The position numbers and the translations under genes were made by a program. 64,000 nt of DNA from an uncultured Latescibacterota bacterium (lineage in GTDB: Bacteria > Latescibacterota > UBA2968). Numbering within the stretch: position 1 is the stretch's first letter; every line of letters begins with the position of its first letter. Under the pieces are notes generated by a model that was given only the letters and a program-made list of their open reading frames with translations, was not told the origin of the DNA and made no database searches. Location of the stretch: positions 4,838,896-4,902,895 of the forward strand of contig OY282377.1 in assembly GCA_958295785.1 (NCBI GenBank). The letters are read 5' to 3'. Below, one piece after another: positions 9,961 through 47,431 of the stretch.

Positions 9961-9972
9961 AGGGTGGGAAAC

Positions 9973-14191: not shown

Positions 14192-17100
14192 ATGAACGCG
14201 GGTACAATACATAGCACCCTCTCTCGGTGCGTTCTTCGCCTCGCAATTTTCGCCACCATTGCTTCGCTGTGGTGCGCTATTCCGGTCGAGGCGCAAACCA
14301 CGGCGGTACGCAGCGTGAGGATCACGTCGTCGCCAGAGAACGGCAACTACGCCGCCGGTGATACCATTACCGTGCGGGTGCTCTTCACTCGGGACAGCCG
14401 ATTCACTGTGGATACGTCATCTGGCACGCCCTATCTCGCGCTCGGGATCGGCAGTCAGACGCGCCGGGCGAATTACCACAACACCAGAAACGACTTCCTG
14501 CAATTCAAATATGTCGTACAGGCGTCGGATGAAGATGGCGACGGCATCAGCATCGCCGCCGGTGCGCTGATGCTCAACGGCGGCACCATTGTGGACGCCA
14601 ATGGCATTGCGCCCAATTTTTCCCTGGGTAGCCACGCCATTTCCAACGATGTGCGCCATACGGTGAACGACGCCAGTCCGTCCTTTGGCGCGGCGACTGT
14701 GGAAAGCAAGCTCTACGACACCAACACGCTGATCACGCCTATCGCGTTGCCGCCGGCCACGGGCGGCAATGGCATGTTGACCTACGCGCTGTCGCCGACT
14801 TCGTTGCCGACCGGCCTGACGTATAAGGCTTTGACGCGCACCATTGAAGGGACGCCGACCGCGGTTACGGCCATCAGTACCTACACTTGGAAGGCGACGG
14901 ATGGCGATGGCGATGCCGCGACGCTGACCTTCTCGTTGCGGGTGTGGGCACCCACGGGGCCGGCGATTGTAGGCGTGGGGGTGTCCGCGCCTCCTGCTGA
15001 TTCCACCTACCAGACCGGCGACATCATATACTCCCACCTCATCTATCGCGAGAAGGTGACCGTTACGGGGACGCCGCAACTCACGCTGGTCATCGGCGCA
15101 CACAAGCGCAAGGTCAATTATAGTCGTATCTCGTCCCTATACTTCAACAACTTTTTGCCGCCGGCCCAGCAACTACTGGTGGTCTTTCCCTACACGGTGC
15201 GGGCGAACGACTTCGATGGCGACGGCATCGCCATTCCGGCGGACGCGCTGAGCCTGAACGGGGGGACGATCCAGGCGGTGGCCAATAGCGCGGATGCCAA
15301 GCTCAACTTGGGAACGAATGCGATCAGGAGCGGCGACGCGAGGAGTGTCGAGATGCGGGTGCGGGACACGCAGCCCACTTTCTCCCAGAGCGCGAGTGCC
15401 GCCAACCGGTCGTTCGCGCTGAATGTGGCGACATCTACGACGTTGCCCACGGTGACGGGCGGCGATGGGCGTGTGACCTACAGCGTGTCCCCGGCGTTGC
15501 CCAGCGGTCTCACGCTGGGGAGCACGAGCCCCTCCGTGACCGGGACGCCCACAGTGTCGGGCGCGACCACGCACACGCTGACCGCGACGGATGTCGACGG
15601 CGATCAAGCGACGCTCGGCCCGTTCACTGTCACGGTGGCGGCGGTCAACGCGCCGAAACCGAGTAATCTGACCATCCTATCCCGGCCGTCCGATGGCGAC
15701 TACGCCACCGGCGAAGAGATCTGGGCTATCGTCTCGTTCGACAAGAACGTTACGGTGACCGGCACGCCGCAACTCGCGCTCACCATCGGCGCCAACACCC
15801 GCCAAGCGCCCTTCGACCCTTTCACCGGCGACGGAGACGACAAATCGTTCAAGTACACCGTGACGTCGTCGGACTTCGACGGCGACGGCATCGCCATCGG
15901 CGACGCCGCGTTGACGCTGAACGGCGGTAGCATCGTCGATGCCAGCGCCAGCACGGTGGCCGCCGCGCTCGACCTCAGTGCCCACGTCATTTCCGGCACC
16001 GGGCCCACGGTGAACGATACGCAACCTTCGTTCGGCAGTACCACGGTATCTGCCCAAAACTACCCCACGAGCACGGCGGTGGACGAATCGCTGCCAGTGC
16101 CCACCGGCGGCGACGGGACCCTTCGCTACTCCTTGGCGCCGTCTTTGCCGACGGGCCTCTCCTTTGACGCCACCCAGCACCGCATCCACGGCACGCCCAC
16201 CACGCGAACCGCGTCCGCGACCTATACCTACACGGCGACCGATGGCGATGGCGATGCGGCCTCGCTGAGCTTCTCGCTGGCGGTGACCACCGTTCCCGCG
16301 GTGAGCGCGGTGACCGTCAGTTCCAGCCCGGCGAGCGGCGACGCTTATGGCGCGCTGGAGACGATCAGCGTGGATGTGCGGTTCGACCAGGCGGTGACGG
16401 TTACCAGCCCCGACCCCAGTCTGGCGCTCACCGTCGGCACCTACACGCGCAGCGCGGCCCTGGCCAGCAAGCCCAACGCCAGCACCCTGCGCTTCAGCTA
16501 CCAAGTGCAGGCGTCTGACGATGACGATGACGGCATCAGCGTCGCCGCGGACGCGCTCACGCTGAACAGCACGGGTAAGCTGCGAGACGCGACGAACACC
16601 CGCGACGCCAACCTGTCCCTCGGCAGCTACGCCATCACCAACGCCAGCGCCCACAAGGTGGATACGCCGCCGAAGATCTCCGGCGTCGCCATCACCTCCC
16701 GTCCGACGGACGGCAACTACGCCGCCGGCAACGTGATCTCGGTGCGCCTCACGTTCACCGAGCCGGTGTTCGTGGGTAGCCCTCATCCGACGGTGGCGCT
16801 AACCATCGGCAGCGACCCGCGCACGGCGACGTGGTCCTCCGGCTCCGCGAGCGAGCCCTTCCACGACTTCACCTACACCGTGACGTCGTCGGACTTCGAC
16901 GGCGACGGCATCAGCATCGCCGCCAGCGCAGTGACCGCCAACCGCGGCTTCCGGACCTACCAACACACCGCCGATCCGCTTCGCCAGGCGCAGGTGGGCC
17001 TCGGTAGCCACGCCATCACCGACGACTCGAACCACCGCGTCCGCGACACGTCGCCTGCGTTCAGCGCCGCGGTGGCCGCGCAACACTACGTGGCGGGCAC

Positions 17101-20100: not shown

Positions 20101-23100
20101 CAGCCAGACGCGGCAGATGTATTACAACGGCTTCAGCGCGAACGGCTTCTCCTTTCGCTACACCGTGCAGGCGGGCGACCACGACGCCGACGGGGTCAGC
20201 TTCGGCGCGAGCGCGCTGAAGCTGAACGGCGCCGTGATCGAAACGGCGGCCAACGGCAACCGGGCGGTGACCACCATCAGCGGCGTCCAAGGCGGAACCA
20301 GCCACAAGGTGGATGGCTCCATACGGCCGCCGGTGGTGAGAACCCTCTCGATGAACAGCCCGCAGCGCGGTTCGACCTTCGACCTCCACGAGAGGATCAA
20401 GATCACCGTCGGGTTCACCCAGAGCGTGACGGTGACCGGCACCCCGCGCCTGTCCCTCGTCATCGGCTCCTCGTGGAAGACGTTGAACATGAGCTCGCGC
20501 TCCGGGAGCGGGACCACACTCAATTTCGTTTACACGGTGCAGGCCACCGATCTCGACACCGACGGCGTGGAAGTGCCTGCCAACTCGCTGTCGCTGAACG
20601 GCGGCACCATACGCAACCAGCACGGCGTGGATGCGGCGCTGGGCCACAGATCCATACGGAGCTACTTGTACCGCTATAACACCCCTAACGTCGACGGCAG
20701 GACGAACCACCCGCCGGTGGTGACCCGTGCGTATTTCGCGGGCCGTCCGGCCGGTGGCGTGTACGGCCGGGGCGACAGGATCGAAGTCAATATCAACTGG
20801 GGCAAGGCCGTGACCACCACCGGCACGCCGCAGCTCGCCATCGACGTCGGCACCGGCACCCGCCAGGCAGCGCGGCAGAGCGGGAATCAGTACTACACCC
20901 GCTTCCACTACACCGTGCAGGCGGGCGACCTCGACACCGACGGCATCAGCGTCGGCAGCGGCGCCCTGACCCTGAACGGCGGCACGATCAAAGGCCCGGG
21001 CAACACCGACGCCAGCCTGACGTTGCCGGCCATAGGCAGGGACGCCAATCGGCGCGTGGACGGACGGGTGCTGCCACAGCCGACCTTCTCCGAAACGGTG
21101 CCGGCGCTGACGTGGACCGTCGGCTCCAGCGTTAGTCGGTCGCTGCCCGCCGCCACCGGCGCGCGGGGCACCATCAGCTACGCGATCCTGCAGGCGTTGC
21201 CGGCCGGCCTGTCGTTCACCGCCGCGTCCCGGACCATCTCCGGCACGCCGACCACCGTGACCGCGCGGGCCACCTACACGCTGGAGGCGACCGACAGCGT
21301 GACCAACGCCAAGGGCACGCGGGCCTTCACCATCGAGATCACGCCGAGCGCCGTTCCGGTGTTCGTCCCCAACACCTTCGACGCGCAGGTTTACGTCAAG
21401 GACGAACTCCTCACCCCGGTCGCGTTGCCGGCCGCCACCGGCGGCAACGTGCCGTTGAGCTACGCGCTGACCGGGCCTGGCACCGCGACGACCCTGACCC
21501 TGCCCGCTGGCGTCTCCTACACCCAGCCCACCGGTACGACCACCGGCGGCACCCTCTCTGGCACCCCCACCGCGGTGGCCGCCCAGGCCACCTACACGCT
21601 GACCGCCACCGACAGGGACAACGACGAGGCCACGCTCACCTTCACGATTGAGGTGCAGGAAGATGCACAGCCCACCTTCGGGACCGCCACCGTGGCGGAC
21701 CAGTCGTGGAAGAAGAACAAGGCGATCACGGCGATCACGTTGCCGACCGCCACCGGCGGCAATGGCACCTTGTCCTACGCCCTCTCTCCCGCCCTGCCGG
21801 CCGGAGTGGCGAAGGACGCGAGCCACGAGATCAGTGGCACGCCGAGCGTGACTCTCGCGGCGACCACCTACACCTGGACGGCTACGGACGTCGATGGCGA
21901 CAGCGCGGAGTTGACCTTCACCATCACCGTGGCGGACAACAGCCTGCCGGCATTCACGGGCCTTGCGCCCAAGAACCGCGTGTGGACGCGCTACAAGAGT
22001 GCCGGCGCCACTCTTCCTCCGGCGTTCGGCGGCGACGCTCCGTTGACCTACACGCTGTCGCCGGCCCTGCCGGCCGGCATGACGCGCGCCGCCAGCCCGG
22101 GCGATGAGCCCGGCGGGCCGCCGGTGGACACCTACAACCGCGTATTAACCGGCACACCCACGGTGGAGATGGCTAGGACTTCGTACGCCTGGACGGTCAC
22201 CGACGTGGACGGGGACCAGGCGGTGTGGGATTTCACCATCACGGTATTGGACAACGCCCGGCCCGACTTCGGCGCCGCGACTATCGCGGACAAGTCGTGG
22301 ACGCGGCGCAAGGCGATCACGGCGTTCATGCTGCCGACCGCCACCGGCGGCGATGGCAGTGTGTCTTATTCGATCTCTCCCGCCTGGCCGGCTGGGGTGA
22401 CGAAGGCCACCAACCACCAAGTCAGCGGCACGCCGACCACGGCACAGGCGCTGACCTCGTACACCTGGACAGCCACCGACGGGGATGGGGACAAGGCGTC
22501 GCTGACGTTCACCATCACGGTGGTGGATCGGCCGCTGACGACGCTGGTGCTCTCGCCTTCGACTATCGACGAGCACGACGGGACGAACCCCGGCTCGGCG
22601 ACGGTGACCGCGACGCTGAACAAGGCGGCGAGGGCGGCGACGATGGTGACGGTGTCTGCAACGGCGGGGACGAACGCCGAGGCGAGTGACTTCACGTTGA
22701 GCGCGAACAAGACGCTGACAATCGCGGCGGGCGCGACGACGAGTACTGGGACGGTGACGATCACGGCGGTGAACAACGCAGACGTCGAGCCGGACAAGTC
22801 GATCATCGTGTCGGGAAGCGTGGGCAACGACGGGGTGGCCGCCCCGGACGACGTGACGCTGACCATTGACGACGACGACGGGGCGAAGGCGACACTGGTT
22901 CTCACACCTTTGACGATCAGCGAGAGCGGGACGGGCAATGCGACGACGGTGACCGCGACTCTGGACCAGGCGGCGAGGGCGGCGACGATGGTGACGGTGT
23001 CTGCAACGGCGGGGACGAACGCCGAGGCGAGTGACTTCACGCTGAGCGCGAACAAGACGCTGACAATCGCGGCGGGCGCGACGACGAGTACTGGGATCGT

Positions 23101-38100: not shown

Positions 38101-41100
38101 CTTCACATTGAGCGCGAACAAAACGCTGACGATAGCGGCCGGTGAGACGACGAGTACCGGGACCGTGACGATTACGGCCAATGACAACAACCAAGATGAG
38201 CCGAATAAGTCCGTGACCGTTTCGGGTTCGGCGAATAACAGTCAAGGTATAACTGATCCGTCCGACGTGACGCTGACGATTACCGATGACGAGGGTTCGC
38301 CGACGGTTTCCCTGGTTTTGTCGCCAACGTCAATTTCAGAGACCGGTGGTGTGGCGACAGTGACCGCGACATTGAACCGTGCGTCGAGTGCGGCGACGAC
38401 GATCACAGTCTCAGCGTCGGCGGGCGATTTCACATTGAGCGCGAACAAGACGCTGACGATAGCGGCCGGTGAGACGACGAGTACCGGGACCGTGACGATT
38501 TCAGCGGTGGACAACAACCAAGATGAGCCGGACAAGGAAGTGACCGTTTCGGGTTCGGCGAATAACAGTCAAGGCATAACTGATCCGTCTGACGAGACGC
38601 TGACGATTACCGATGATGAGGGTTCGCCGACGGTTTCCCTGGTTTTGTCGCCAACGTCAATTTCAGAGACCGGTGGTGTGGCGACAGTGACCGCGACATT
38701 GAACCGTGCGTCGAGTGCGGCGACAACGATCACAGTCTCAGCGTCGGCGGGCGATTTCACGTTGAGCGCGAATAAGACGCTGACGATAGCGGCGGGCGCG
38801 ACGACGAGCAGTGGCACCGTAACCATTACGGCCAATGACAACAACCAAGATGAGCCGAATAAGTCCGTGACCGTCTCGGGAACAGCGGACAATAGTCAAG
38901 GTATAACTGATCCGTCTGACGTGACGCTGACGATTACCGATGATGAGGGTACACCGACGGTTTCCCTGGTTTTGTCGCCAACGTCAATTTCAGAGACCGG
39001 TGGTGTGACGACAGTGACCGCGACGTTGAACCGAGCGTCGAGCGCGGCGACAACGGTCACAGTCTCAGCGTCGGCGGGCGATTTCACATTGAGCGCGAAC
39101 AAAACGCTGACGATAGCGGCCGGTGAGACGACGAGTACCGGGACCGTGACGATTTCAGCGGTGGACAACAACCAAGATGAGCCGGATAAGTCAGTGACCG
39201 TTTCGGGTTCGGCGAATAACAGTCAAGGTATAACTGATCCGTCCGACGTGACGCTGACGATTACCGATGACGAGGGTTCGCCGAGTGTGACGCTGGTTCT
39301 GTCGCCAACGTCAATTTCAGAGAACGGTGGTGTGGCGACAGTGACCGCGACATTGAACCGTGCGTCGAGTGCGGCGACGACGATCACAGTCTCGGCGTCG
39401 GCTGGCGATTTCACATTGAGCACGGACAAGACGCTGACGATAGCGGCCGGTCAGACGACGAGCACCGGGACCGTGACGATTACGGCCAATGACAACAACC
39501 AAGATGAGCCAGATAAGTCCGTGACCGTTTCGGGTTCGGCGAATAACAGTCAAGGCATAACTGATCCGTCCGACGTGACGCTGACGATTCGCGATGACGA
39601 GGGTTCGCCGAGTGTGACGCTGGTTTTGTCGCCAACGTCAATTTCAGAGAACGGTGGTGTGGCGACAGTGACCGCGACATTGAACCGTGCGTCGAGTGCG
39701 GCGACAACGATCACGGTCTCAGCGTCGGGTGGCGGTTTCACATTGAGCACGGACAAGACGCTGACGATAGCGGCGGGCGCGACGACGAGCAGTGGCACCG
39801 TGACGATTACGGCGGTGAACAATAACAAAGATGAGTTGAATAAGGAAGTGACGGTCTCGGGTTCGACGACGAATAGCCAAGGTATAACTGATCCGTCTGA
39901 CGTGACGTTGACGATTGCCGATGACGACAATGCACCGTCCTTCTCGGCAACAGTGGATGACCAGACTTGGACACAGCGTCAGCAGATCACGGCGTTCACA
40001 TTGCCCACGGCCAGCGGCGGCGATGGCACAGCGACCTACACCCTGTCGCCTACTCTGCCAAGTGGCGTGTCCAAGGATGCCACTCACCGCGTCAGTGGTA
40101 CGCCGACGGTGGCTTTGGGCGAGACGACTTATACATGGGCGGCGACGGAAACGGATGGCGACAAGGCCGAATTGACGTTCACTATCTCGGTGGATGGGGT
40201 GCCGTCGTTTGGCTCTCAGACGATAGCGGATCAATTTTGGACGCGGAACGAGGCGATCACGGCGTTCACATTGCCGCTGGCGACCGGTGGTGATGGCGGT
40301 TTGTCCTATAGCATCGATCCGGCTTTGCCCGATGGGGTAACGAAGGATGGCACCCACCGCGTCAGCGGTACGCCAAGTGTATCCAAGGCGTTGACGACGT
40401 ACACTTGGACTGCGACGGACGCTGATAACGACACGGCGACACTGACGTTCACGATCACGGTTGGGCAACGGGTTAGCGACGTTGCACTGTCGTTTGGTTC
40501 ACAGACGATAGATGACCAAGAGTGGACGCAGAACGGGGCGATCACGGCGTTCACATTGCCGTCGGCGATCGGCGGGACCGGCACTGTGAGCTACGACCTT
40601 TCCCCTGCACTACCGACGGGTGTCAGCAAGGACGCCGCGCACCGCGTCAGCGGTACGCCGAGTGTATCCAAGGCGTTGACGACGTACACTTGGACTGCGA
40701 CGGACGCAAACGGTGCCACGGCCGCGCTGACGTTCACGATTACGGTGGCTGACCCGGCCCTGGCCGATCTGACGCCGATTTTTAACCCGAATACCTACGC
40801 TGCCCAGCGTTATACCTATCTCAAGACGATCACCCCGGTCACTTTGCCGGCAGCCAGCGGCGGCGATGGTGTTCTGACGTACGCACTGTCGCCGACTTTG
40901 CCGAATGGACTCTCTTTCAGCGAGACGACGCGGGTGCTTTCAGGGAGGCCGACAGAGACGCAAACCGAGACCACCTATACGCTGACCGCGACGGATGTCG
41001 ATGGCGATACAGCGGACTTGACCTTCAGCGTCACGGTGATACTCGCGGCCCCTGATGCGCCTGCCAACTTGCGGGCAGTCGCTGGCAACGAGCAGGCAAC

Positions 41101-44100
41101 TCTCATGTGGGAAAACCCCAATAACCCCACCATCACGCGCTACGAGGTTCGGTACGCGCCCAAGGACGAAGACATTCTCGCTGTCGCTTGGATGGCGATA
41201 ACGGGCAGCGACGCAACGACCACTGAGCACCTGCTGACCGGGTTGACAAATGGCATGGAGTACAGGTTCCATGTGCGGGCGGTGAACGCCGTCAGTGCAG
41301 GGCCGAAGGCCGAAACGTCGGTAATTTTGCAAGATGTGGCAGATGAAGAGCCGCCCAATTCGGTGCCGACATTCACGGATGCAGTGGATTTTCAACGCTA
41401 TCGGCAAGGCACGGCCATCACGCCGCTGGTCTTTCCCCAGGCGATAGATGGTGATGGCACGCTGACGTATGCCCTAACGCCGCCTGCCGGGCTGACTTAT
41501 ACCCCACCTGCCAATGGAGAAGAGGGAGCAGAGCATGGCGGTGTCATGGATGGCACGCCAACCGAGCCAAAGGAAAAGACGCGCTATGACCTGTCGGTGA
41601 CCGATGAGGATGGGGATGAGGCGACCGCGAGTTTCTTCGTTGTGGTGACAGAGGATCTGTTGCCCTCGTTCACAGATGGGGTGGGCACGCAACGCTATGT
41701 GCAGAACCGGGCGATTGAGAAGCTCACGTTGCCCGAAGCGACGGGTGGCGATGGCGTTTTGGAGTACACTTTGACGCCTGATCTGCCCGCTGGACTTGAC
41801 CGAGACGAACGCACCATTTCGGGCACGCCAACCGAGGCGATGACCCTGACGGAATACAGTTGGATTGCGACGGATGAAGATGGGGATACCGCCACGCTGG
41901 TGTTCACGGTTGAGGTGCTGGCGGATCTGGTGCCTGCGTTCACGGATACGGTAGGGGCGCAACAGTTCGTTGAGAACCAAGCGATTTCGCCGGTTAGGTT
42001 GCCCAAGGCGACGGGTGGCGATGGTGTGTTGACCTATACGCTGACGCCTGCGCCTTCTGCTGGCTTGACGTTTGACGCGGCGACGCGCGTGCTTTCGGGG
42101 CTGCCTGTTGAGGCGATGGGTGTGACGGAATGTATCTGGACTGCGACGGATGAAGATGGGGATACCGCCACGCTGGTGTTCACGGTTGAGGTGCTGGCGG
42201 ATCTGGTGCCTGCGTTCACGGATACAGTGGCGGCACAACAGTTCGTTGAGAATCAAGCGATATCGCCTGTCATGTTGCCCGAAGCGACGGGTGGTGATGG
42301 GATGCTGACCTATAAGTTGACGCCTGCTCTGGCCGCTGGACTCGACGAGGAGGGGCGTGTCATTTCAGGGATGCCAACCGAGGCGCTGGGTGTGACCGAA
42401 TACAGTTGGATTGCGACGGATGCCGATGGGGATACGGCGACGCTGGTCTTTACGGTTGAGGTGCTGGCGGATTTGGTGCCTGCGTTCACGGATACAGTGG
42501 CGGCGCAACAGTTCGTTGAGAACCAAGCGATATCGCCTGTCATGTTGCCCGAAGCGACGGGTGGTGATGGGATGCTGACCTATAAGTTGACGCCTGCTCT
42601 GGCCGCTGGACTCGACGAGGAGGGGCGTGTCATTTCAGGGATGCCAACCGAGGCGCTGGGTGTGACCGAATACAGTTGGATTGCGACGGATGCCGATGGG
42701 GATACGGCGACGCTGGTCTTTACGGTTGAGGTGCTGGCGGATTTGGTGCCTGCGTTCACGGATACAGTGGCGGCGCAACAGTTCGTTGAGAACCAAGCGA
42801 TATCGCCTGTCATGTTGCCCGAAGCGACGGGTGGTGATGGGATGCTGACCTATAAGTTGACGCCTGCTCTGGCCGCTGGACTCGACGAGGAGGGGCGTGT
42901 CATTTCAGGGATGCCAACCGAGGTGCTGGGTGTGACCGAATACAGTTGGATTGCGACAGATGCCGATGGGGATACGGCGACGCTGGTCTTTACGGTTGAG
43001 GTGCTGGCGGATTTGGTGCCTGCGTTCACGGATACGGTAGGGTCGCAACAGTTTGTTGAGAACCAAGTGATTTCGCCGGTTAGGTTGCCCAAGGCGACGG
43101 GTGGTGATGGTGTGTTGACCTATACGCTGACGCCTGCGCCTTCTGCGGGGTTGACGTTTGACGCGGCGACGCGCGTGCTTTCGGGTCTGCCTGTTGAAGC
43201 GATGGGTGTGACGGAATGTATCTGGACAGCGACGGATGCCGATGGGGATACCGCCACGCTGGTGTTCACGGTTGAGGTGCTGGCGGATTTGGTGCCTGCG
43301 TTCACGGATACGGTAGGGGCGCAACAGTTTGTTGAGAATCAAGCGATATCGCCTGTCATGTTGCCCGAAGCGACGGGTGGCGATGGCGTGTTGACCTATA
43401 CGCTGACGCCTGCTCTGGCCGCTGGACTCGACGAGGAGGGGCGTGCCATTTCAGGGATGCCAACCGAGGCGATGGGTGTGACCGAATACAGTTGGATTGC
43501 GACGGATGCCGATGGGGATACCGCCACGCTGGTGTTCACGGTTGAGGTGCTGGCGGATTTGGTGCCTGCGTTCACGGATACGGTAGGGTCGCAACAGTTT
43601 GTTGAGAATCAAGCGATTACACCTGTCATGTTGCCCGAAGCGACGGGTGGCGATGGCGTGTTGACCTATACGCTGACGCCTGCGCCTTCTGCTGGCTTGA
43701 CGTTTGACGCGGCGACGCGCGTGCTTTCGGGTCTGCCGACCGAGGCGATGGGTGTGACCGAATACAGTTGGACCGCGACGGATGCCGATGGGGATACGGC
43801 GACACTGGTCTTTACGGTTGAGGTGAAAGCGGATTTGGTGCCTGCGTTCACGGATACGGTAGGGTCGCAACAGTTTGTTGAGAATCAAGTGATTACACCT
43901 GTCATGTTGCCCGAAGCGACGGGTGGTGATGGGATGCTGACCTATAAGTTGACGCCTGCTCTGGCCGCTGGACTCGACGAGGAGGGGCGTGTCATTTCAG
44001 GGATGCCAACCGAGGCGATGGGTGTGACCGAATACAGTTGGATTGCGACGGATGCCGATGGAGATACCGCCACGCTGGTGTTCACGGTTGAGGTGCTGGC

Positions 44101-46840
44101 GGATTTGGTGCCTGTGTTCACGGATACGGTAGGGTCGCAACAGTTTGTTGAGAATCAAGCGATATCGCCTGTCATGTTACCCGAAGCGACAGGTGGTGAT
44201 GGCGTGTTGACCTACGCGCTGACGCCTGCTCTGGCCGCTGGACTCGACGAGGAGGGGCGTGCCATTTCAGGGATGCCAACCGAGGCGATGGGTGTGACCG
44301 AATACAGTTGGATTGCGACGGATGCCGATGGGGATACCGCCACGCTGGTGTTCACGGTTGAGGTGCTGGCGGATTTGGTGCCTGCGTTCACGGATACGGT
44401 AGGGTCGCAACAGTTTGTTGAGAATCAAGCGATATCGCCTGTCATGTTACCCGAAGCGACGGGTGGCGATGGCGTGTTGACCTATACGCTGACGCCTGCT
44501 CTGGCCGCTGGACTCGACGAGGAGGGGCGTGCCATTTCAGGGATGCCAACCGAGGCGATGGGTGTGACCGAATACAGTTGGATTGCGACGGATGCCGATG
44601 GGGATACGGCGACACTGGTCTTTACGGTTGAGGTGAAAGCGGATTTGGTGCCTGCGTTCACGGATACGGTAGGGTCGCAACAGTTCGTTGAGAATCAAGC
44701 GATATCGCCTGTCATGTTGCCCGAAGCGACGGGTGGCGATGGCGTGTTGACCTATACGCTGACGCCTGCGCCTTCTGCTGGCTTGACGTTTGACGTGGCG
44801 ACGCGCATGCTTTCGGGGATGCCAACCGAGGCGCTGGGTGTGACCGAATACAGTTGGATTGCGACGGATGCCGATGGGGATACCGCCACGCTGGTGTTCA
44901 CGGTTGAGGTGCTGGCGGATTTGGTGCCTGCGTTCACGGATACGGTAGGGTCGCAACAGTTCGTTGAGAATCAAGCGATTACACCTGTCATGTTGCCCGA
45001 AGCGACGGGTGGTGATGGCGTGTTGACCTACGCGCTGACGCCTGCTCTGGCCGCTGGACTCGACGAGGAGGGGCGTGTCATTTCAGGGATGCCAACCGAG
45101 GCGATGGGTGTGACCGAATACAGTTGGACCGCGACGGATGTTGATGGGGATACGGCGACGCTGGTCTTTACGGTTGAGGTGCTGGCGGATTTGGTGCCCA
45201 TGTTTACAGAGACGGTCGAGCCACAACGCTACCGGGCAGGTAGGGCGATTGCGCCGCTCACGTTGCCGGTTGCAACGGGTGGCGATGGTGTGCTGACGTA
45301 CGCGCTGACGCCTGCGCCGCCGGAGGGATTGTCGTTGGATGCGGCGACGCGTGTGCTTTCGGGGATGCCGACCACGCCGATGACCGAAGCTGCTTACAAG
45401 TGGGCGGTGACAGATGCGGATGGGGATATGGCGGAACTGATCTTTACTATCGCCATTGAGGTGGCGGACCGCACGCGGCTCAGGGCAATAAACGAGGCGA
45501 TTTTGCCCGAACTCGCACGCGCAATGCGAACGAGCAGCCTCGACGCGCTGACGGGGCGTATTGATCAAGAAGGCATTTCGTCGGGCGTTATGAACGCCGA
45601 AGCGGCCATCATGTCTCTCGCCAATAAGGTGATGGCGAGTGAATACGCGATCCAAGAGGGTCTATGGTCCTTGCAGGAGATGCTCAACGGTTCATCCTTT
45701 GCCCTCCCGCTCTCGAATAAAAATAATGCGGGCGCACCTATTTCTGGCCATTGTCCTGTCGCGCTGTGGGGCGCGAGCGACTTTCGACGCCTGAGCCTCA
45801 ACGGCGACGCGCCGATCTCGTGGGATGGCGACCTCTTCGCCGTGCATCTGGGCGCAGACATGCGTTTTGGCAACGGCTTGATCGCCGGGCTTGCAGGTTC
45901 ATGGTTCGACGGATCGGTTGCGTACACGGATCAGGGTTATGGGGAGGCGATATCCGGCACGCATGAGAGCCGGATGGTGAGTGCCCATCCCTATTTGGGG
46001 TGGTCTTCGCAGATGGGGTCGAACCTGTGGGCGACGGCTGGCTATGGTCGGGGCGAGATCGAAATAGATGACGACAAGGCCGGGGCGCATGCGAGCGACA
46101 GCAACCTGAGGACCGCAGCAGCGGGTGGGCGCGTGCGCCTATCTGGCGTGCCCTCGACGTTCGATTTGAAGGGCGAAGCGTGGGTGACGCGCTTGGCGGT
46201 TGATGACAATGGCGATGGGGTTGAAGGAGTGGCCGCAAATACCCAACGCTTGCGCTTGGCCGGAGAGGTCGCGCATACCTTTGGGTTCGCCTCGGGCACA
46301 TCGTTCACGCCGTCGATGGAACTCGGCGTGCGGATGGATGGCGGCGACGGGCAGACGGGTGCCGGCGTTGAACTCGGCGGTGGGTTGCACTATGTTGCCA
46401 GGCGGCTGACTGTGGAGGCGATGAGCCGGGTTTTGCTCGCGCATGCAGGCGATACGAAGGAATGGAGCGCGGGTCTCTCTGTACAGTTTGAGCCAAAAGA
46501 CAATGGTCGCGGGTTGTCGTTCCTATTGCAGCCGTCTTATGGCGAGCCGGGCAGTGGCGTGGCGCAGTTGTGGGAGCAAGGCGTGATCGGCGCTGGATCG
46601 ATCAGCTTTGCGCCGACGATGCAGATGGATACAGAGGTCGGGTACACAGTGCCGATGTTCGCCGGGATGCTCACGCCTTATAGTGGCTTCAGATTTTCGC
46701 AGGATGGCATGCGGGGCTACCGTTTTGGCGGTCGGATGGAGATCGGCGAATTGGGGACTGTGAGCCTTGAGGGGATGCGCGATAGGGCCAGCGATGAGGC
46801 GACTCACGGGGTGATGATGCAAGGTCATTTGAACTTTTAG
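14192..46840 (+). CDS. Giant multi-domain autotransporter adhesin (10,882 aa)
   Basis: One uninterrupted 32.6-kb frame. The ATG at 14192 has an AAAGG stretch about 10 bases upstream and opens a signal peptide (residues 1-34, cleavage PVEA-QT). Order: 14 modules of about 100 aa with a GxYxxGxxI start and a DxDxDG loop, interleaved with five He_PIG-type Ig domains (35-2289); five He_PIG domains (2290-2779); about 51 Calx-beta-like units (2780-8579); four He_PIG (8580-8950); one fibronectin III (8951-9049); 15 He_PIG (9050-10422); a helical linker; and an autotransporter beta-barrel (about 10518-10882) ending HLNF, a C-terminal Phe as recognised by the BAM machinery. It is rich in Thr, Ser, Ala and Asp, with only about three Cys in the mature chain. 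Calx-beta and the Asp loops imply Ca2+-stiffened fibres. Expected role: a type V-secreted surface adhesin or matrix protein. Predicted mass about 1.1 MDa. Confidence 0.95.
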   Translation: MNAGTIHSTLSRCVLRLAIFATIASLWCAIPVEAQTTAVRSVRITSSPENGNYAAGDTITVRVLFTRDSRFTVDTSSGTPYLALGIGSQTRRANYHNTRNDFLQFKYVVQASDEDGDGISIAAGALMLNGGTIVDANGIAPNFSLGSHAISNDVRHTVNDASPSFGAATVESKLYDTNTLITPIALPPATGGNGMLTYALSPTSLPTGLTYKALTRTIEGTPTAVTAISTYTWKATDGDGDAATLTFSLRVWAPTGPAIVGVGVSAPPADSTYQTGDIIYSHLIYREKVTVTGTPQLTLVIGAHKRKVNYSRISSLYFNNFLPPAQQLLVVFPYTVRANDFDGDGIAIPADALSLNGGTIQAVANSADAKLNLGTNAIRSGDARSVEMRVRDTQPTFSQSASAANRSFALNVATSTTLPTVTGGDGRVTYSVSPALPSGLTLGSTSPSVTGTPTVSGATTHTLTATDVDGDQATLGPFTVTVAAVNAPKPSNLTILSRPSDGDYATGEEIWAIVSFDKNVTVTGTPQLALTIGANTRQAPFDPFTGDGDDKSFKYTVTSSDFDGDGIAIGDAALTLNGGSIVDASASTVAAALDLSAHVISGTGPTVNDTQPSFGSTTVSAQNYPTSTAVDESLPVPTGGDGTLRYSLAPSLPTGLSFDATQHRIHGTPTTRTASATYTYTATDGDGDAASLSFSLAVTTVPAVSAVTVSSSPASGDAYGALETISVDVRFDQAVTVTSPDPSLALTVGTYTRSAALASKPNASTLRFSYQVQASDDDDDGISVAADALTLNSTGKLRDATNTRDANLSLGSYAITNASAHKVDTPPKISGVAITSRPTDGNYAAGNVISVRLTFTEPVFVGSPHPTVALTIGSDPRTATWSSGSASEPFHDFTYTVTSSDFDGDGISIAASAVTANRGFRTYQHTADPLRQAQVGLGSHAITDDSNHRVRDTSPAFSAAVAAQHYVAGTAASLTLPTATGDGSISYELTSTLPGGLTYSITRSDDSITHSISGTPAAAATASEQTWVATDGDGDKTTLTFTITVAAADAPKVSALIFIDSPRSNNTYVLGEDINVGLKFDKAVTVGTLRPWPRLALTIGAQTRYASYISLIASGHLVFTYTVQADDLDTDGISIGASALSLNGGSIVQSSDASVAASLALGSFAVTDDTDRKVNGGTNDAPSVSSVNLQSTPVISDGYAVGEVIRLSVGFTEDLAVNGSPRLAIDIGDSTRQTTFDRVEGLRTLHFRYTVQTSDDDANGISVAAGALTLPAGATIRDLYGEDATLGLGSHALADQSAHKVHTPPKVTGLSIASTPQQANTYTRGGTITARVTFDQKVTVAGSPELALTIGSYTRTATAAAGGGNAYVDFSYTVVAADADTDGIGIAAGALTLPTGATIQDVAGGDAAQDLSSYASTLFAATKVDGSRTGRWPDFGSATGPDLLLMVSTAAFSNLPTSSTGDTPLAYTVSPALPAGLTLGRVTGAISGTATAESPSIKYTLTVTDANGDTDTLPFALGVTGNRPTVRGVSFLSSPSAASTYGRYDDILVSVRFWRQGTGAMVVSGVPRLAINVGGVTQQAAYYAVSGDNVRFRYTVQAGDRDTDGVSIGAGALTLNGGTIRDGALNNAVLSLGRHTVANHASHKVDATITRAPSVAGVTITSRPATGDTYSRGETIEVAVRFSQGVGITGTPQLALSIGTVTRQADYNRTTSATHYFRYVVQQADMDINGLSIGTGALTLNRGSIRSNQNRNAVLGLGSHAITNAANAKVNGAANSPAVVTGVSITSRPARGNTFILGEEIQVRVTFNKAVTVNAGIWRGLINNRPFFRFPFLELTIGSLTRQAVNKNPGEWQADPPSTTHTFRYTVQVGDYDSDGLGIAANALKLNEGPGQIRNNGVDANINLGSHAISASAYKVDGRRASVSRVRITSSPSADNTYAAGEHISVGITFNMPIRITTGSTVPKLDLAVGSQTRQMYYNGFSANGFSFRYTVQAGDHDADGVSFGASALKLNGAVIETAANGNRAVTTISGVQGGTSHKVDGSIRPPVVRTLSMNSPQRGSTFDLHERIKITVGFTQSVTVTGTPRLSLVIGSSWKTLNMSSRSGSGTTLNFVYTVQATDLDTDGVEVPANSLSLNGGTIRNQHGVDAALGHRSIRSYLYRYNTPNVDGRTNHPPVVTRAYFAGRPAGGVYGRGDRIEVNINWGKAVTTTGTPQLAIDVGTGTRQAARQSGNQYYTRFHYTVQAGDLDTDGISVGSGALTLNGGTIKGPGNTDASLTLPAIGRDANRRVDGRVLPQPTFSETVPALTWTVGSSVSRSLPAATGARGTISYAILQALPAGLSFTAASRTISGTPTTVTARATYTLEATDSVTNAKGTRAFTIEITPSAVPVFVPNTFDAQVYVKDELLTPVALPAATGGNVPLSYALTGPGTATTLTLPAGVSYTQPTGTTTGGTLSGTPTAVAAQATYTLTATDRDNDEATLTFTIEVQEDAQPTFGTATVADQSWKKNKAITAITLPTATGGNGTLSYALSPALPAGVAKDASHEISGTPSVTLAATTYTWTATDVDGDSAELTFTITVADNSLPAFTGLAPKNRVWTRYKSAGATLPPAFGGDAPLTYTLSPALPAGMTRAASPGDEPGGPPVDTYNRVLTGTPTVEMARTSYAWTVTDVDGDQAVWDFTITVLDNARPDFGAATIADKSWTRRKAITAFMLPTATGGDGSVSYSISPAWPAGVTKATNHQVSGTPTTAQALTSYTWTATDGDGDKASLTFTITVVDRPLTTLVLSPSTIDEHDGTNPGSATVTATLNKAARAATMVTVSATAGTNAEASDFTLSANKTLTIAAGATTSTGTVTITAVNNADVEPDKSIIVSGSVGNDGVAAPDDVTLTIDDDDGAKATLVLTPLTISESGTGNATTVTATLDQAARAATMVTVSATAGTNAEASDFTLSANKTLTIAAGATTSTGIVTITAVNNADVEPDKSVTVSGTVGNADVIAPAAVTLTIEDDDRATATLVLTPATISESGTGNATTVTATLDQAARAATTVTVSATAGTNAESGDFTLSGTTTLTIAAGATTSTGTVTITAVNNADAEPDKSITVSGTVGNTDVVAPAAVTLTIEDDDKVPSRLVLSSSTIAEYDGTNVGSATVTATLGQAVSAATTVTVSATAGTNAESGDFTLSANKTLTIAATATTSTGTVTITAVNNAAMELDKSVTVSGTVGNIEVSAPADVTLTITDDDRDPLTPTFFIDSPSVAEGGPGDFNSLDWTVTLIPASSQDVRVGIAVDGTASTAIMGTPRTREQTGADHGFPDGQDLTFVAGQTSRTIGVTVYGDATVEPDETVVMKMSGPYLSDATLGNTIGTGKILNDDTLPAVTLAVGTSAISEDGGTTTVTATLNRVSGAATTVKVAGVAGAYTVAMDSTIVIAAGETSNTSDSVTITAVNDDIDNVGNRSTTVTGTAENTAGVTGAALTLTDDEATPVATLALSEPNVSKPDTINESGTGNASTVTAMLNWASSEDVILTVSAAAGANAAASDFTLSGTTTLTIAAGETTSTGTVTITAVDNTKDEPDKSVTVSAAASGNSGVVNPVDATLTIADDDDAPSVSINSPSVTEGASGSTATLTYEVTLSAASGKQVTVAYADASTGTASRADDYTALSSGTLTFAADATSATIDVTITGDGIDEPDETIIVELSSPTNATLGTASSGTGTITDDDDAPSVTLVLSHETIDESGTTTATTVTATLDHASSAATTITVSAAAGTNAGSGDFTLSTDKTLTIAAGETTSTGTVTIAAVDNDKDEPNKEVTVSGTADNSQGITAPTDETLTITDDDAAPSVTLVLSHETIDESGTTTATTVTATLDHASSAATTITVSAAAGTNAGSGDFTLSTDKTLTIAAGETTSSGTVTITAVDNDKDEPNKEVTVSGTADNSQGITAPSDETLTIADDESTPTVSLFLSPATISENGGVATVTATLDHASSAATTITVSAASGGFTLSANKTLTIAAGETTSTGSVTISAENNDKDEPDKSVTVSGTASGGRGVSNPSDVTLTITDDESTPTVTLSLSPTSISENGGVATVTATLSGASSAATTITVSASGGGFTLSSDKTLTIAASATTSSGAVTISAVDNDKDEPDKSVTVSGSATNSQGITDPTDETLTITDDDDAPSVSINSPSVAEGASGSTATLTYEVTLSAASGKQVTVAYADARTGTASRADDYTALSSGTLTFAADATSTTIDVTITGDGIDEPDETIIVELSSPTNATLGTASGTGTITDDDDKPSVTLSLSHASISETGGVATVTATLSGASSAATTITVSASGSGFTLSANQTLTIAAGATTSTGSVTISAENNNKDEPDKSVTVSGSASGGRGVSDPSSVTLTITDDDDAPSVSINSPSVTEGASGSTATLTYKVTLSAASGKQVTVAYADAGTGTASSSADYTALSSGTLTFAAGETSATIDVTITGDGIDEPDETIIVKLSGPTNATLGTASGTGTITDDDDAPSVTLVLSSTSISESGGVATVTATLSGASSAATTITVSATAGTHAEATDFTLSSDKTLTIAAGQTTSSGTVTITTNDNNKDEPDKSVTVSGSATNSQGITDPTDETLTIADDDAEPSVSINSPSVAEGASGSTATLTYDVTLSAASGNQITVAYADASTGTASSADDYTALSSGTLTFAAGETSATIDVTITGDGIDEPDETIIVELSGPTNATLGTASSGTGTITDDDAAPSVTLFLSPATIDESGTTTATTVTATLDHASSAATTITVSASGGDFTLSTAKTLTIAAGETTSSGTVTIAAVDNDKDEPDKEVTVSGTADNSQGITDPSDETLTIRDDDAAPSVTLFLSPATIDESGTTTATTVTATLDHASSAATTITVSAAAGTNAGSGDFTLSTAKTLTIAAGETTSSGTVTITAVDNDKDEPNKEVTVSGSANNSQGITAPSSVTLTIRDDDAKPSVTLVLTPTEIDESGATTSTTVTATLDHTSSAATTITVSATAGANAEATDFTLSSDKTLTIAAGETTSSGTVTISAEDNNKDEPNKEVTVSGTADNSQGITAPTDVTLTITDDEGPPTVKLVLTPTEIDESGGTTSTTVTATLNRASSATTTVTVSAMAGTNAEATDFTLSSDKTLTIAAGETTSSGTVTIAAVDNDQDEPNKSVVVSGSANNSQGITAPSSVTLTIRDDDAKPSVTLVLTPTEIDESGGTTSTTVTATLDHTSSAATTITVSATAGANAEATDFTLSSDKTLTIAAGETTSSGTVTISAEDNNKDEPNKEVTVSGTADNSQGITAPTDVTLTITDDEGPPTVKLVLTPTEIDESGGTTSTTVTATLDHTSSAATTITVSATAGANAEATDFTLSSDKTLTIAAGETTSSGTVTIAAVNNDKDEPDKSVTVSGSANNSQGITAPSSVTLTIRDDDAKPSVTLVLTPTEIDESGGTTSTTVTATLDHTSSAATTITVSATAGTNAGSGDFTLSPDKTLTIAAGATTSSGTVTITANDNNKDEPNKSVTVSGTADNSQGITDPTDVTLTITDDEGSPTVKLVLTPTEIDESGGTTSTTVTATLNRASSATTTVTVSAMAGTNAEATDFTLSPDKTLTIAAGATTSTGTVTITANDNNKDEPNKEVTVSGSANNSQGITDPSSVTLTIRDDDAKPSVTLVLTPTEIDESGGTTSTTVTATLDHASSAATTITVSATAGANAEATDFTLSSDKTLTIAAGATASSGTVTISAENNDQDEPDKSVTVSGSANNSQGITAPSSVTLTIRDDDAKPSVTLVLTPTEIDESGGTTSTTVTATLDHASSAATTITVSATAGTNAGSGDFTLSSDKTLTIAAGATTSTGTVTISAVDNNKDEPDKSVTVSGSANNSQGITAPSSVTLTIRDDDAKPSVTLVLTPTEIDESGGTTSTTVTATLDHTSSAATTITVSATAGANAEATDFRLSTAKTLTIAAGATTSSGTVTITAVNNDKDEPNKEVTVSGSATNSQGITDPTDETLTIADDDAEPSVSINSPSVAEGASGSTATLTYDVTLSAASGKQVTVAYADASTGTASRADYTALSSGTLTFAADATSTTIDVTITGDGIDEPDETIIVKLSGPTNATLGTASGTGTITDDDDAPSVTLVLSSTSISESGGVATVTATLSGASSAATTITVSATAGTNAEATDFRLSTDKTLTIAAGATTSSGTVTITAENNNKDEPDKSVTVSGSATNSQGITDPTDKTLTITDDDDAPSVSINSPSVAEGASGSTATLTYKVTLSAASGKQVTVAYADASTGTASRADDYTSLSSGTLTFAANETSTTIDVTITGDGIDEPDETIIVKLSGPTNATLGTASGTGTITDDDDKPSVTLSLSHASISENGGVTTVTATLSGASSAATTITVSASGGDFRLSANKTLTIAAGTTTSSGTVTITAQDNNKDEPDKSVTVSGSASGGHGVSDPSAVTLTITDDEGTPTVSLVLSHASISENGGVATVTATLSGASSAATTITVSASGGDFTLSTDKTLTIAASATTSTGSVTISAENNDKDEPDKSVTVSGSASGGRGVSDPSSVTLTITDDDDAPSVSINSPSVAEGASGSTATLTYEVTLSAASGKQVTVAYADASTGTASRADDYTSLSSGTLTFAANETSTTIDVTITGDGIDEPDETIIVELSGPTNATLGTASGTGTITDDDDAPSVTLVLSHKSIDESGTTTATTVTATLSGASSAATTITVSASGGGFTLSTDKTLTIAAGETTSTGTVTITAVDNDKDEPDKEVTVSGSATNSQGITDPSDETLTIRDDEGSPTVTLVLSPTSISENGGVATVTATLSGASSAATTVTVSASGSDFTLSANKTLTIAAGATTSSGTVTITAVNNDKDEPDKEVTVSGSANNSQGITDPSDETLTITDDEGSPTVSLVLSSTSISENGGVATVTATLSGASSAATTITVSATAGTNAEATDFRLSTDKTLTIAAGATTSSGTVTITAESNNKDEPDKSVTVSGSATNSQGITDPTDETLTIADDDDAPSVSINSPSVAEGASGSTATLAYEVKLSAASGKQVMVAYADAGTGTASSADDYTALSSGTLTFAADATSATIDVTITGDGIDEPDETIIVELSGPTNATLGTASGTGTITDDDDRPSVTLSLSHATISENGGVTTVTATLSGASSAATTITVSATAGTNAEATDFTLSTEKTLTIAAGATTSSGTVTISAEDNNKDEPDKSVTVSGTASGGRGVANPVDVTLTITDDDDAPSVSINSPSVAEGASGSTATLTYKVTLSAASGKQVTVAYADAGTGTAASSADYTALSSGTLTFAADATSATIDVTITGDGIDEPDETIIVELSGPTNATLGTASGTGTITDDDDKPSVTLVLSPASISENGGVATVTATLSGASSAATTVTVSAAAGDFTLSANKTLTIAAGATTSSGTVTITANDNNQDEPDKSVTVSGSATNSQGITDPSDETLTIRDDEGSPTVTLVLSPTSISENGGVATVTATLNRASSAATTITVSASAGDFTLSTDKTLTIAAGATTSSGTVTITANDNNQDEPDKSVTVSGLANNSQGITDPSDVTLTITDDEGSPTVTLVLSSTSISENGGVATVTATLNRASSAATTVTVSASAGDFTLSTDKTLTIAAGETTSTGTVTISAVDNNQDEPDKSVTVSGSANNSQGITDPSDVTLTITDDEGSPSVTLVLSPTSISENGGVATVTATLNRASSAATTITVSASAGDFTLSTDKTLTIAAGETTSTGTVTISAVDNNQDEPDKSVTVSGSANNSQGITDPSDETLTITDDEGSPSVTLVLSPTSISENGGVATVTATLNRASSAATTVTVSASAGDFTLSANKTLTIAAGETTSTGTVTISAVDNNQDEPDKSVTVSGSANNSQGITDPSDETLTITDDEGSPTVSLVLSPTSISETGGVATVTATLNRASSAATTITVSASAGDFTLSANKTLTIAAGETTSTGTVTITANDNNQDEPNKSVTVSGSANNSQGITDPSDVTLTITDDEGSPTVSLVLSPTSISETGGVATVTATLNRASSAATTITVSASAGDFTLSANKTLTIAAGETTSTGTVTISAVDNNQDEPDKEVTVSGSANNSQGITDPSDETLTITDDEGSPTVSLVLSPTSISETGGVATVTATLNRASSAATTITVSASAGDFTLSANKTLTIAAGATTSSGTVTITANDNNQDEPNKSVTVSGTADNSQGITDPSDVTLTITDDEGTPTVSLVLSPTSISETGGVTTVTATLNRASSAATTVTVSASAGDFTLSANKTLTIAAGETTSTGTVTISAVDNNQDEPDKSVTVSGSANNSQGITDPSDVTLTITDDEGSPSVTLVLSPTSISENGGVATVTATLNRASSAATTITVSASAGDFTLSTDKTLTIAAGQTTSTGTVTITANDNNQDEPDKSVTVSGSANNSQGITDPSDVTLTIRDDEGSPSVTLVLSPTSISENGGVATVTATLNRASSAATTITVSASGGGFTLSTDKTLTIAAGATTSSGTVTITAVNNNKDELNKEVTVSGSTTNSQGITDPSDVTLTIADDDNAPSFSATVDDQTWTQRQQITAFTLPTASGGDGTATYTLSPTLPSGVSKDATHRVSGTPTVALGETTYTWAATETDGDKAELTFTISVDGVPSFGSQTIADQFWTRNEAITAFTLPLATGGDGGLSYSIDPALPDGVTKDGTHRVSGTPSVSKALTTYTWTATDADNDTATLTFTITVGQRVSDVALSFGSQTIDDQEWTQNGAITAFTLPSAIGGTGTVSYDLSPALPTGVSKDAAHRVSGTPSVSKALTTYTWTATDANGATAALTFTITVADPALADLTPIFNPNTYAAQRYTYLKTITPVTLPAASGGDGVLTYALSPTLPNGLSFSETTRVLSGRPTETQTETTYTLTATDVDGDTADLTFSVTVILAAPDAPANLRAVAGNEQATLMWENPNNPTITRYEVRYAPKDEDILAVAWMAITGSDATTTEHLLTGLTNGMEYRFHVRAVNAVSAGPKAETSVILQDVADEEPPNSVPTFTDAVDFQRYRQGTAITPLVFPQAIDGDGTLTYALTPPAGLTYTPPANGEEGAEHGGVMDGTPTEPKEKTRYDLSVTDEDGDEATASFFVVVTEDLLPSFTDGVGTQRYVQNRAIEKLTLPEATGGDGVLEYTLTPDLPAGLDRDERTISGTPTEAMTLTEYSWIATDEDGDTATLVFTVEVLADLVPAFTDTVGAQQFVENQAISPVRLPKATGGDGVLTYTLTPAPSAGLTFDAATRVLSGLPVEAMGVTECIWTATDEDGDTATLVFTVEVLADLVPAFTDTVAAQQFVENQAISPVMLPEATGGDGMLTYKLTPALAAGLDEEGRVISGMPTEALGVTEYSWIATDADGDTATLVFTVEVLADLVPAFTDTVAAQQFVENQAISPVMLPEATGGDGMLTYKLTPALAAGLDEEGRVISGMPTEALGVTEYSWIATDADGDTATLVFTVEVLADLVPAFTDTVAAQQFVENQAISPVMLPEATGGDGMLTYKLTPALAAGLDEEGRVISGMPTEVLGVTEYSWIATDADGDTATLVFTVEVLADLVPAFTDTVGSQQFVENQVISPVRLPKATGGDGVLTYTLTPAPSAGLTFDAATRVLSGLPVEAMGVTECIWTATDADGDTATLVFTVEVLADLVPAFTDTVGAQQFVENQAISPVMLPEATGGDGVLTYTLTPALAAGLDEEGRAISGMPTEAMGVTEYSWIATDADGDTATLVFTVEVLADLVPAFTDTVGSQQFVENQAITPVMLPEATGGDGVLTYTLTPAPSAGLTFDAATRVLSGLPTEAMGVTEYSWTATDADGDTATLVFTVEVKADLVPAFTDTVGSQQFVENQVITPVMLPEATGGDGMLTYKLTPALAAGLDEEGRVISGMPTEAMGVTEYSWIATDADGDTATLVFTVEVLADLVPVFTDTVGSQQFVENQAISPVMLPEATGGDGVLTYALTPALAAGLDEEGRAISGMPTEAMGVTEYSWIATDADGDTATLVFTVEVLADLVPAFTDTVGSQQFVENQAISPVMLPEATGGDGVLTYTLTPALAAGLDEEGRAISGMPTEAMGVTEYSWIATDADGDTATLVFTVEVKADLVPAFTDTVGSQQFVENQAISPVMLPEATGGDGVLTYTLTPAPSAGLTFDVATRMLSGMPTEALGVTEYSWIATDADGDTATLVFTVEVLADLVPAFTDTVGSQQFVENQAITPVMLPEATGGDGVLTYALTPALAAGLDEEGRVISGMPTEAMGVTEYSWTATDVDGDTATLVFTVEVLADLVPMFTETVEPQRYRAGRAIAPLTLPVATGGDGVLTYALTPAPPEGLSLDAATRVLSGMPTTPMTEAAYKWAVTDADGDMAELIFTIAIEVADRTRLRAINEAILPELARAMRTSSLDALTGRIDQEGISSGVMNAEAAIMSLANKVMASEYAIQEGLWSLQEMLNGSSFALPLSNKNNAGAPISGHCPVALWGASDFRRLSLNGDAPISWDGDLFAVHLGADMRFGNGLIAGLAGSWFDGSVAYTDQGYGEAISGTHESRMVSAHPYLGWSSQMGSNLWATAGYGRGEIEIDDDKAGAHASDSNLRTAAAGGRVRLSGVPSTFDLKGEAWVTRLAVDDNGDGVEGVAANTQRLRLAGEVAHTFGFASGTSFTPSMELGVRMDGGDGQTGAGVELGGGLHYVARRLTVEAMSRVLLAHAGDTKEWSAGLSVQFEPKDNGRGLSFLLQPSYGEPGSGVAQLWEQGVIGAGSISFAPTMQMDTEVGYTVPMFAGMLTPYSGFRFSQDGMRGYRFGGRMEIGELGTVSLEGMRDRASDEATHGVMMQGHLNF
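14290..21060 (+). repeat. N-terminal array: 14 DxDxDG modules with interleaved He_PIG domains
   Basis: Each module follows the pattern VxxVxITSxPxxGxxYxxGxxIxVxVxF, VTVTGTPxLxLxIGxxTRxA, FxYTVQAxDxDxDGIxIxAxALxLNGGxI, then LGxHAI. The DxDxDG[IV] motif (for example DEDGDGISI, DLDTDGISI) would suit a Ca2+ loop. He_PIG domains sit after modules 1, 2, 3, 5 and 8. Copies differ widely at DNA level, so the array is old, and it is visibly more GC-rich at third positions than the central array. I do not know an established name for this module. Confidence 0.8.
21060..22530 (+). repeat. Five He_PIG-type Ig domains (block 1)
   Basis: Pattern FxxxTVxxQxWxxxxAITxxTLPxATGGxGxLxYxLSPALPAGxxxDxxxxxISGTPTxxxxxTYTWTATDxDGDxAxLTFTITV, repeated five times with moderate divergence. 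He_PIG domains are cadherin/Ig-like beta sandwiches of surface proteins. The DxDGD loop near the end of each unit is a candidate Ca2+ site between neighbouring domains. Confidence 0.85.
22530..39935 (+). repeat. Array of about 51 Calx-beta-like units
   Basis: Two unit types alternate. Canonical Calx-beta units (SVSINSPSVAEGASGSTATL to LGTASGTGTITDDD) occur about nine times plus one diverged copy. The others run from PSVTLVLSPTSISENGGVAT to SVTVSGSANNSQGITDPSD and TLTITDDE. The latter come in two lengths: 109 aa (327 bp, very regular at 36.66-39.93 kb, ten in a row) and about 116-118 aa, which carry an extra TAGTNAEATDF-type loop. Calx-beta plus neighbour pairs recur every 675-685 bp in places, a higher-order repeat. 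All units end in an acidic DDD/DDE linker, typical of Calx-beta Ca2+ sites. Long antisense frames through this region are by-products of the repeat. Confidence 0.9.
39935..41045 (+). repeat. Four He_PIG-type Ig domains (block 2)
   Basis: Units begin SFSATVDDQTWTQRQQITAF, SFGSQTIADQFWTRNEAITA, SFGSQTIDDQEWTQNGAITA and IFNPNTYAAQRYTYLKTITP, each ending in a TATD/ETDGD-type strand. They bridge the Calx-beta array to the fibronectin domain. Confidence 0.85.
41046..41340 (+). other. Single fibronectin type III domain of the giant protein
   Basis: About 98 residues beginning APDAPANLRAVAGNEQATLM, with W in the B-strand region (MWENP), a YEVRYAPK strand, and the closing LTGLTNGMEYRFHVRAVNAV that is diagnostic of FN3. 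It is the only FN3 domain seen and separates the second and third He_PIG blocks. Confidence 0.88.
41350..45470 (+). repeat. Fifteen He_PIG-type Ig domains (block 3), 12 in 270-bp near-identical units
   Basis: Two diverged units, then 12 units of 90 aa (41.93-45.19 kb) starting LVPAFTDTV(G/A)(A/S)QQFVENQ, then one diverged unit (VPMFTETVEPQRYRAG). Two flavours of the second half alternate: LAAGLDEEGRVISGMPTEA and SAGLTFDAATRVLSGLP. Units starting near 42226, 42496 and 42766 differ by only a few bases, which points to recent duplication or gene conversion. Confidence 0.9.
45748..46840 (+). other. Autotransporter beta-barrel domain (C-terminus of giant protein)
   Basis: About 364 residues of alternating amphipathic strands: LWGASDFRRLSL, GDLFAVHLGADMRFGNGLIA, MVSAHPYLGWSS, NLWATAGYGRGEIEI and so on, finishing in a strand with a terminal Phe. 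It is preceded by a helical linker (INEAILPELARAMRTSSLDA onward), as in classical type Va autotransporters where the helix threads the barrel. No protease motif was noticed that would release the passenger. Confidence 0.9.
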
Positions 46841-46862
46841 GGACACGCGACCACGACAAAAG

Positions 46863-46893
46863 AAACGCGACCTTTGTGGTCGCGTTTTTTGTT
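46863..46893. terminator. Rho-independent terminator of the giant gene
   Basis: 10-bp perfect stem AAACGCGACC / GGTCGCGTTT with a TTTGT loop, followed by a T-run, 22 bases after the giant gene's stop. The A-run on the other side may also help end the convergent ATP synthase transcript. Confidence 0.85.
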
Positions 46894-47413: not shown

Positions 47414-47431
47414 TTTGAGTACTCACTGATG

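Follow-up and report, generated by a model that had tools for sequence, protein, structure and literature searches.

The window, the whole 64,000-nucleotide stretch of DNA that was analysed, comes from a Candidatus Latescibacterota bacterium and contains one uninterrupted open reading frame of 10,882 codons, which is a real, intact and extreme gene. The encoded giant is probably a surface adhesin that displays itself by a type Va-like route, with Ig-like modules stiffened by Ca2+, and that has grown by in-frame duplication. The features of the gene and of its surroundings are listed in Table 1.

Table 1. Features of the giant gene and its flanks in the window
Feature	Residues	Position	Strand	Remarks
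SurA/PpiC-type periplasmic chaperone gene		8032..9960	+	upstream of giant
NAD synthase gene		9964..11700	+	left edge of variable interval
Giant ORF		14192..46840	+	10,882 aa, 1.096 MDa, pI 4.06, 5 Cys, 17% Thr
Predicted Sec-type signal peptide	1-34	14192..14293	+	cleavage site VEA/Q; from sequence and hydropathy, by eye
Distal region	41-2279	14312..21028	+	14 repeats of ~105 aa interleaved with 5 He_PIG modules
5 He_PIG (PF05345) Ig-like modules	2297-2777	21080..22522	+	
51 Calx-beta-type modules	2781-8580	22532..39931	+	41 type A, 10 type B
4 He_PIG modules	8582-8949	39935..41038	+	
Single fn3 domain	8955-9041	41054..41314	+	PF00041, E 4e-14
15 He_PIG modules, predicted membrane-proximal	9059-10422	41366..45457	+	270-bp units up to 99% identical
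Predicted alpha-helical linker	10429-10462	45476..45577	+	AlphaFold2 with alignment A1
C-terminal beta-barrel, probably divergent PF03797 family	10,523-10,882	45758..46837	+	~18 predicted strands
Terminator-like hairpin		46860..46890	+	13 pairs, then T run; 20 bp past giant ORF stop
atpC-like ORF (ATP synthase epsilon)		47012..47422	-	right edge of variable interval; from operon position and conservation

The 32.6-kb frame

The frame extends over 32.6 kb from ATG to stop without an internal stop codon. The stop-to-stop frame has 10,886 codons, and therefore any start further upstream lies at most four codons away. The codon positions differ strongly in composition, the third position having 73% GC. 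Among pairs of repeat units that are more than 85% identical in DNA, third positions hold an excess of the differences, and the dN/dS values are 0.28 for Calx A, 0.35 for Calx B, and 0.20 for He_PIG. The third-position pattern and the low dN/dS values indicate that the ORF behaves as a translated and selected gene. Together with the independent giants that carry the same barrel family elsewhere (see below), the third-position GC and the low dN/dS of the repeats also argue against a chance frame. The single intact frame reported in the preliminary description is therefore confirmed, by its uninterrupted codons, by the purifying selection on its repeats, and by its position in a host genome that is 99% complete and consists of one contig of 5,660,449 bases (5.66 Mb).

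It is very unlikely that the frame is an artefact of assembly, in which the arrays were expanded or misjoined and the real gene is shorter or split. Such an error would be favoured by array units of up to 99% identity and by exact repeats of up to 400 bp, but the majority of the repeat units are distinct, the frame is unbroken within the single 5.66-Mb contig, and independent giant frames exist in other single-contig genomes. The longest exact repeat within the gene, at 400 bp, is short relative to long reads. A neutral expansion of repeats, with no present function and heading to decay, is likewise very unlikely. It is in keeping with the lack of the giant gene at the same site in four sister species, and with the lack of the barrel family in most of the sampled genomes of the phylum. 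In contrast, the repeats are under purifying selection, the 10,882 codons are free of stops, and the signal peptide, the barrel, and the terminator are all intact.

Signal peptide, passenger modules, and barrel

The N-terminus of the giant (MNAGTIHSTLSRCVLRLAIFATIASLWCAIPVEA-Q) has an Arg in the n-region, a hydrophobic core, and an AxA-like site (VEA/Q), while the C-terminus (...GVMMQGHLNF) ends in Phe, as expected of a beta-signal strand. The signal peptide and the autotransporter-type barrel that had been described at the two ends are found there, respectively. The passenger between them has about 10,390 residues (about 10,400 in the preliminary description) and ~95 modules. Counted with self-trained HMMs, the protein has 14 repeats in its N-terminal part, 29 He_PIG modules, and 51 Calx-beta modules, which together cover 9,753 residues; Pfam contributes one further module, the fn3 domain. 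The Calx-beta count, 41 of one type and 10 of another, agrees with the earlier estimate of about 50 units. The five kinds of modules reported at the same time are obtained by treating the two Calx-beta types as separate kinds.

The Calx-beta profile (PF03160) is above its cut-off in at least 12 units, the units beyond these matches being counted by the self-trained HMMs. A profile built from the giant's own Calx-beta units, which are up to 98% identical in DNA, retrieves the NCX1 Ca2+ domain structures. The He_PIG profile (PF05345) likewise gives matches above its cut-off. The N-terminal repeats of ~105 aa have no significant match in Pfam or NCBIfam and, in the PDB, a weak one to a single Ig structure (8bl3, E 0.004); their HMM also matches the 7,314-aa relative described below. 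Their appearance had suggested the name SWM, for which there is no support; the SWM_repeat profile (PF13753) has no match in these repeats, but it is also silent in every control genome. Minor Pfam matches within the arrays (DUF3426, IMS_C, and others) are likely artefacts of summing over repeats, as no stretch passes by itself.

The Asp loops noted earlier correspond to acidic motifs of the Ca2+ type with regular spacing. DxDxDG[IVL] occurs 12 times, in 12 of the 14 N-terminal repeats, and TDx[DN]GD occurs 24 times; the 53 DDD/DDE motifs are nearly all at the ends of Calx units. The passenger is without the beta-helix usual for type Va, and no recognised ligand-binding tip domain is found in it; both observations count against the reading as a type Va-like adhesin.

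The barrel of the window alone scores 22.4 bits against PF03797, below the cut-off of 26, and is therefore assigned to this family only via its relatives. PF03797 matches 15 of the 30 tested members of the barrel family (best 2.8e-14). A full-length relative (L014), which is 37% identical to the window barrel (E 2e-66), reaches 53 bits. Through these relatives, the sequence comparisons point to a divergent PF03797 autotransporter domain. Against this assignment stand the score of the window barrel below the cut-off and the lack of any PF03797 match in a search of the giant's own genome; the barrel profile has no match in a sequence search of the PDB.

The last 455 residues were modelled with AlphaFold together with 30 relatives (alignment A1). 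The model (mean pLDDT 65.5) has a helix at residues 2–35, with pLDDT of 72–80 over model residues 1–30, followed by ~18 strands in 360 residues; prediction from the single barrel sequence was useless (pLDDT 33). The closest compact matches found by Foldseek are the autotransporter barrels of BrkA, EspP, and Hbp (TMt 0.54–0.64). Larger barrels (LptD and TonB receptors) are also returned, with poor superposition, and a search of a viral fold library gave no useful match.

According to the model, the barrel would have ~18 strands rather than 12, which may be held with medium confidence; the strand number and the low mean pLDDT count against the type Va-like explanation. The PF03797 match is confined to the first two thirds of the domain, so that the barrel may be an enlarged one; the C-terminal 110 residues are conserved in relatives. 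'Long-type' barrels have been noted earlier for AIDA-I/Ag43 (PMC3419190). It is conceivable, but somewhat doubtful, that the domain is an enlarged (~18-strand) type V-like translocator, which evolved with string-of-Ig passengers, rather than a type Va barrel with the classical 12 strands. The last strands have pLDDT mostly of 50–70, with one loop below 50, and the best Foldseek alignments are to 12-strand barrels. This reading is a refinement of the type Va-like explanation rather than an exclusive rival to it.

Barrel family and genomic site

The preliminary description had proposed a search for the barrel with other passengers in related genomes. Such a search with the last 455 residues finds ~35 loci, which are distributed over 19 of the 64 genomes sampled from the phylum and lie close to frame ends; three of these loci belong to further giants. 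Barrels of the family stand at the end of two frames in one genome (G008), of 11,240 and 6,949 aa, and of a 7,314-aa frame in another (G037). Both are single-contig genomes, and all three giants have signal-like N-terminal segments. A scan of a collection of genome contigs with the window barrel itself gave no match, and no relatives were found in a search of a plasmid collection.

The 11,240-aa frame, on the minus strand at L043:5349-20000 and L044:1-19068 (G008:C1:890348-924067), is longer than the giant of the window. Its product has a leucine-rich repeat near the N-terminus, Calx-beta arrays, DUF7507 modules, and a barrel of the same family. The genome of the window giant also encodes a paralogue of 3,504 aa, on the minus strand at L049:2689-13200 (about C1:4646188-4656699), with 19 He_PIG modules and a barrel 78% identical to that of the giant.

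In a maximum-likelihood tree of the barrels, no two of the four giants fall in the same group, and each is accompanied by smaller relatives of ~3 kaa. The 10,882-aa giant groups with the 3,504-aa paralogue, the 11,240-aa giant with relatives of 2,978–3,303 aa, the 7,314-aa giant with one of 2,926 aa, and the 6,949-aa giant with those of 3,425 and 3,431 aa. The deep forks of the tree are modestly supported. Since the four giants stand on separate branches with small siblings, gigantism appears to have arisen several times, and it is most likely that giant size evolved repeatedly on one kind of barrel.

The matches to a barrel taken from the class-mates are in records of Candidatus Latescibacterota or uncultured Latescibacteria, except for two titled Gemmatimonadota/Gemmatimonadetes. 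By their isolate names, several of the barrel-bearing class-mates would come from sponge or coral projects. It may tentatively be suggested, with some way to go before it could be called probable, that, in sponge- and coral-associated Latescibacterota, a lineage-specific type V class with an enlarged barrel of ~18 strands serves as a standard exit for passengers of as many as 100 Ig-like, Ca2+-binding modules, those of megadalton size having about four independent origins.

The interval from the NAD synthase gene to the ATP synthase operon is 35 kb here; in four sister genomes (G002, G004, G006, and G008) it is 3–12 kb and contains no giant. The flanks of the interval align between the window and the sister species of the genus. 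As the sister species have no giant at this site, the giant is either a lineage-specific gain at a variable interval or has been lost elsewhere. The SurA/PpiC gene was rejected as a dedicated partner of the giant, because species that have no giant at this site retain it beside NAD synthase.

Three other features of the window may be recorded. A tandem duplication of 383 bp (2004-2778, 96% identical) overlaps the 3' end of a DDE transposase ORF (1332-2387). In the gap between two convergently oriented ORFs, downstream of both, the 7-mer CAGATGT is present in 15.4 perfect tandem copies (59888-59995). In an ORF at 61698-63821, a weak RimK ATP-grasp domain comes after the middle and C-terminal domains of a Mur ligase, an order that looks reversed relative to cyanophycin synthetase.

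Proposed secretion route and comparison with known adhesins

In the type Va-like model, the giant would be exported by Sec via its signal peptide. The C-terminal barrel would be folded into the outer membrane by BAM, aided by SurA- and TAM-like factors, with the alpha-helix in the pore; the genome has six Omp85 loci and one TamB locus. The passenger would then exit C-terminus first, which would place the He_PIG array beside the membrane and the N-terminal repeats at the tip. The Ca2+-binding modules would fold stepwise outside, and the Asp-rich loops and junctions would bind Ca2+ and stiffen the ~95 beta-sandwich modules. The coordination of Ca2+ ions in repeat linkers is described in PMC7493085 as stiffening adhesin repeats. 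The gene itself may have originated from a barrel gene copy gained (or kept) in the variable interval that NAD synthase and atpC delimit; the passenger would have grown afterwards as its modules, under purifying selection, were duplicated in tandem and in frame.

With 95 modules at an assumed 4–4.5 nm each, the fibre would be roughly 0.4 μm long and might reach host matrix, particles, or neighbouring cells. The Ca2+-dependent filament of hundreds of nanometres proposed earlier is plausible, and the attachment to host tissue proposed with it might be supposed from the module types and from the presumed sponge or coral origin of class-mates. A function as an adhesive fibre may be supposed by analogy, because the module types are known in Ca2+-dependent adhesins (PMC12153261, and as described in PMC7493085).

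Calx-beta and Ig-like arrays of a similar kind occur in giant adhesins secreted by type I systems, e.g., LapA (PMC12153261), and the T1SS-143 repeat model has matches in the He_PIG arrays, one stretch being above cut-off. There is, nevertheless, little chance that the giant leaves the cell through a type I system, as the LapA/SiiE-type RTX adhesins do, with the C-terminal barrel incidental or a mere anchor. The giant has a cleavable-type N-terminal signal peptide, and the barrel occupies the C-terminus, where a type I signal would sit. The RTX nonapeptide motif (GGxGxD) is absent from all the giants tested, which makes type I secretion unlikely, and the RTX reading was rejected on this ground.

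Among the type I adhesins, LapA, SiiE, and the 1.5-MDa ice-binding adhesin nevertheless resemble the giant in their Calx-beta/Ig-like extender arrays, Ca2+-dependent stiffening, and similar size; the giant differs from them in being without RTX repeats and in having a signal peptide and a C-terminal barrel. BapP of Pseudoalteromonas tunicata also has Calx-beta and Ig-like repeats, a predicted Sec signal, and Ca2+ dependence, but it has just 12 beta-sandwich repeats and its secretion route is not known (PMC12153261). Intimin, invasin, and YeeJ (type Ve) likewise use a barrel in their own chain to display a tandem Ig-like passenger. Their barrel is N-terminal, whereas that of the giant is C-terminal, and the giant is therefore not an inverse autotransporter. 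With the type Va proteins BrkA, EspP, and Hbp (PF03797), the giant shares an alpha-helix before a C-terminal barrel, homology via relatives, and a structural match. In contrast, classical type Va passengers are mostly beta-helical and their barrels have 12 strands, compared with ~18 in the model of the giant.

The extreme size claimed in the preliminary description stands in that the passenger is far above the characterised type Va passengers, which range from 193 to 3,374 aa (PMC9289746). It has a precedent in BigE (10,429 aa), which was described in 2012 as larger than any other known autotransporter (Celik et al. 2012, PMC3419190), and the sister genome has the 11,240-aa frame. BigE resembles the giant in having a one-chain passenger of ~10,000 residues built by internal duplication, a signal sequence, and a C-terminal barrel common to smaller relatives. 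It differs in its BrkA-like passenger with eightfold domain replication, its EstA-type barrel, and its occurrence in beta-proteobacteria, whereas the giant has strings of Ig-like and Calx-beta modules, a divergent and perhaps larger barrel, and a host in a candidate phylum. A full-text search of open-licence papers for Latescibacteria together with autotransporters returned no relevant paper. The new aspects of the protein are thus not its size but its passenger of Ig-like strings, a barrel that is divergent and may be larger, its occurrence in this phylum, and the probable repeated origin of such giants.

If the giant is secreted as read, more than 10,000 residues in ~95 foldable modules cross the outer membrane via one small barrel, with no ATP there, and the protein tests models of the energetics of autotransport. 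Folding of a beta-helix cannot drive its export, but stepwise Ca2+-dependent folding of sandwich modules outside the cell could. The pairs of giants and ~3-kaa proteins in the same barrel groups form a natural series on the limits of passenger size, and a family of putative large adhesins is added for an uncultured phylum found with sponges and corals.
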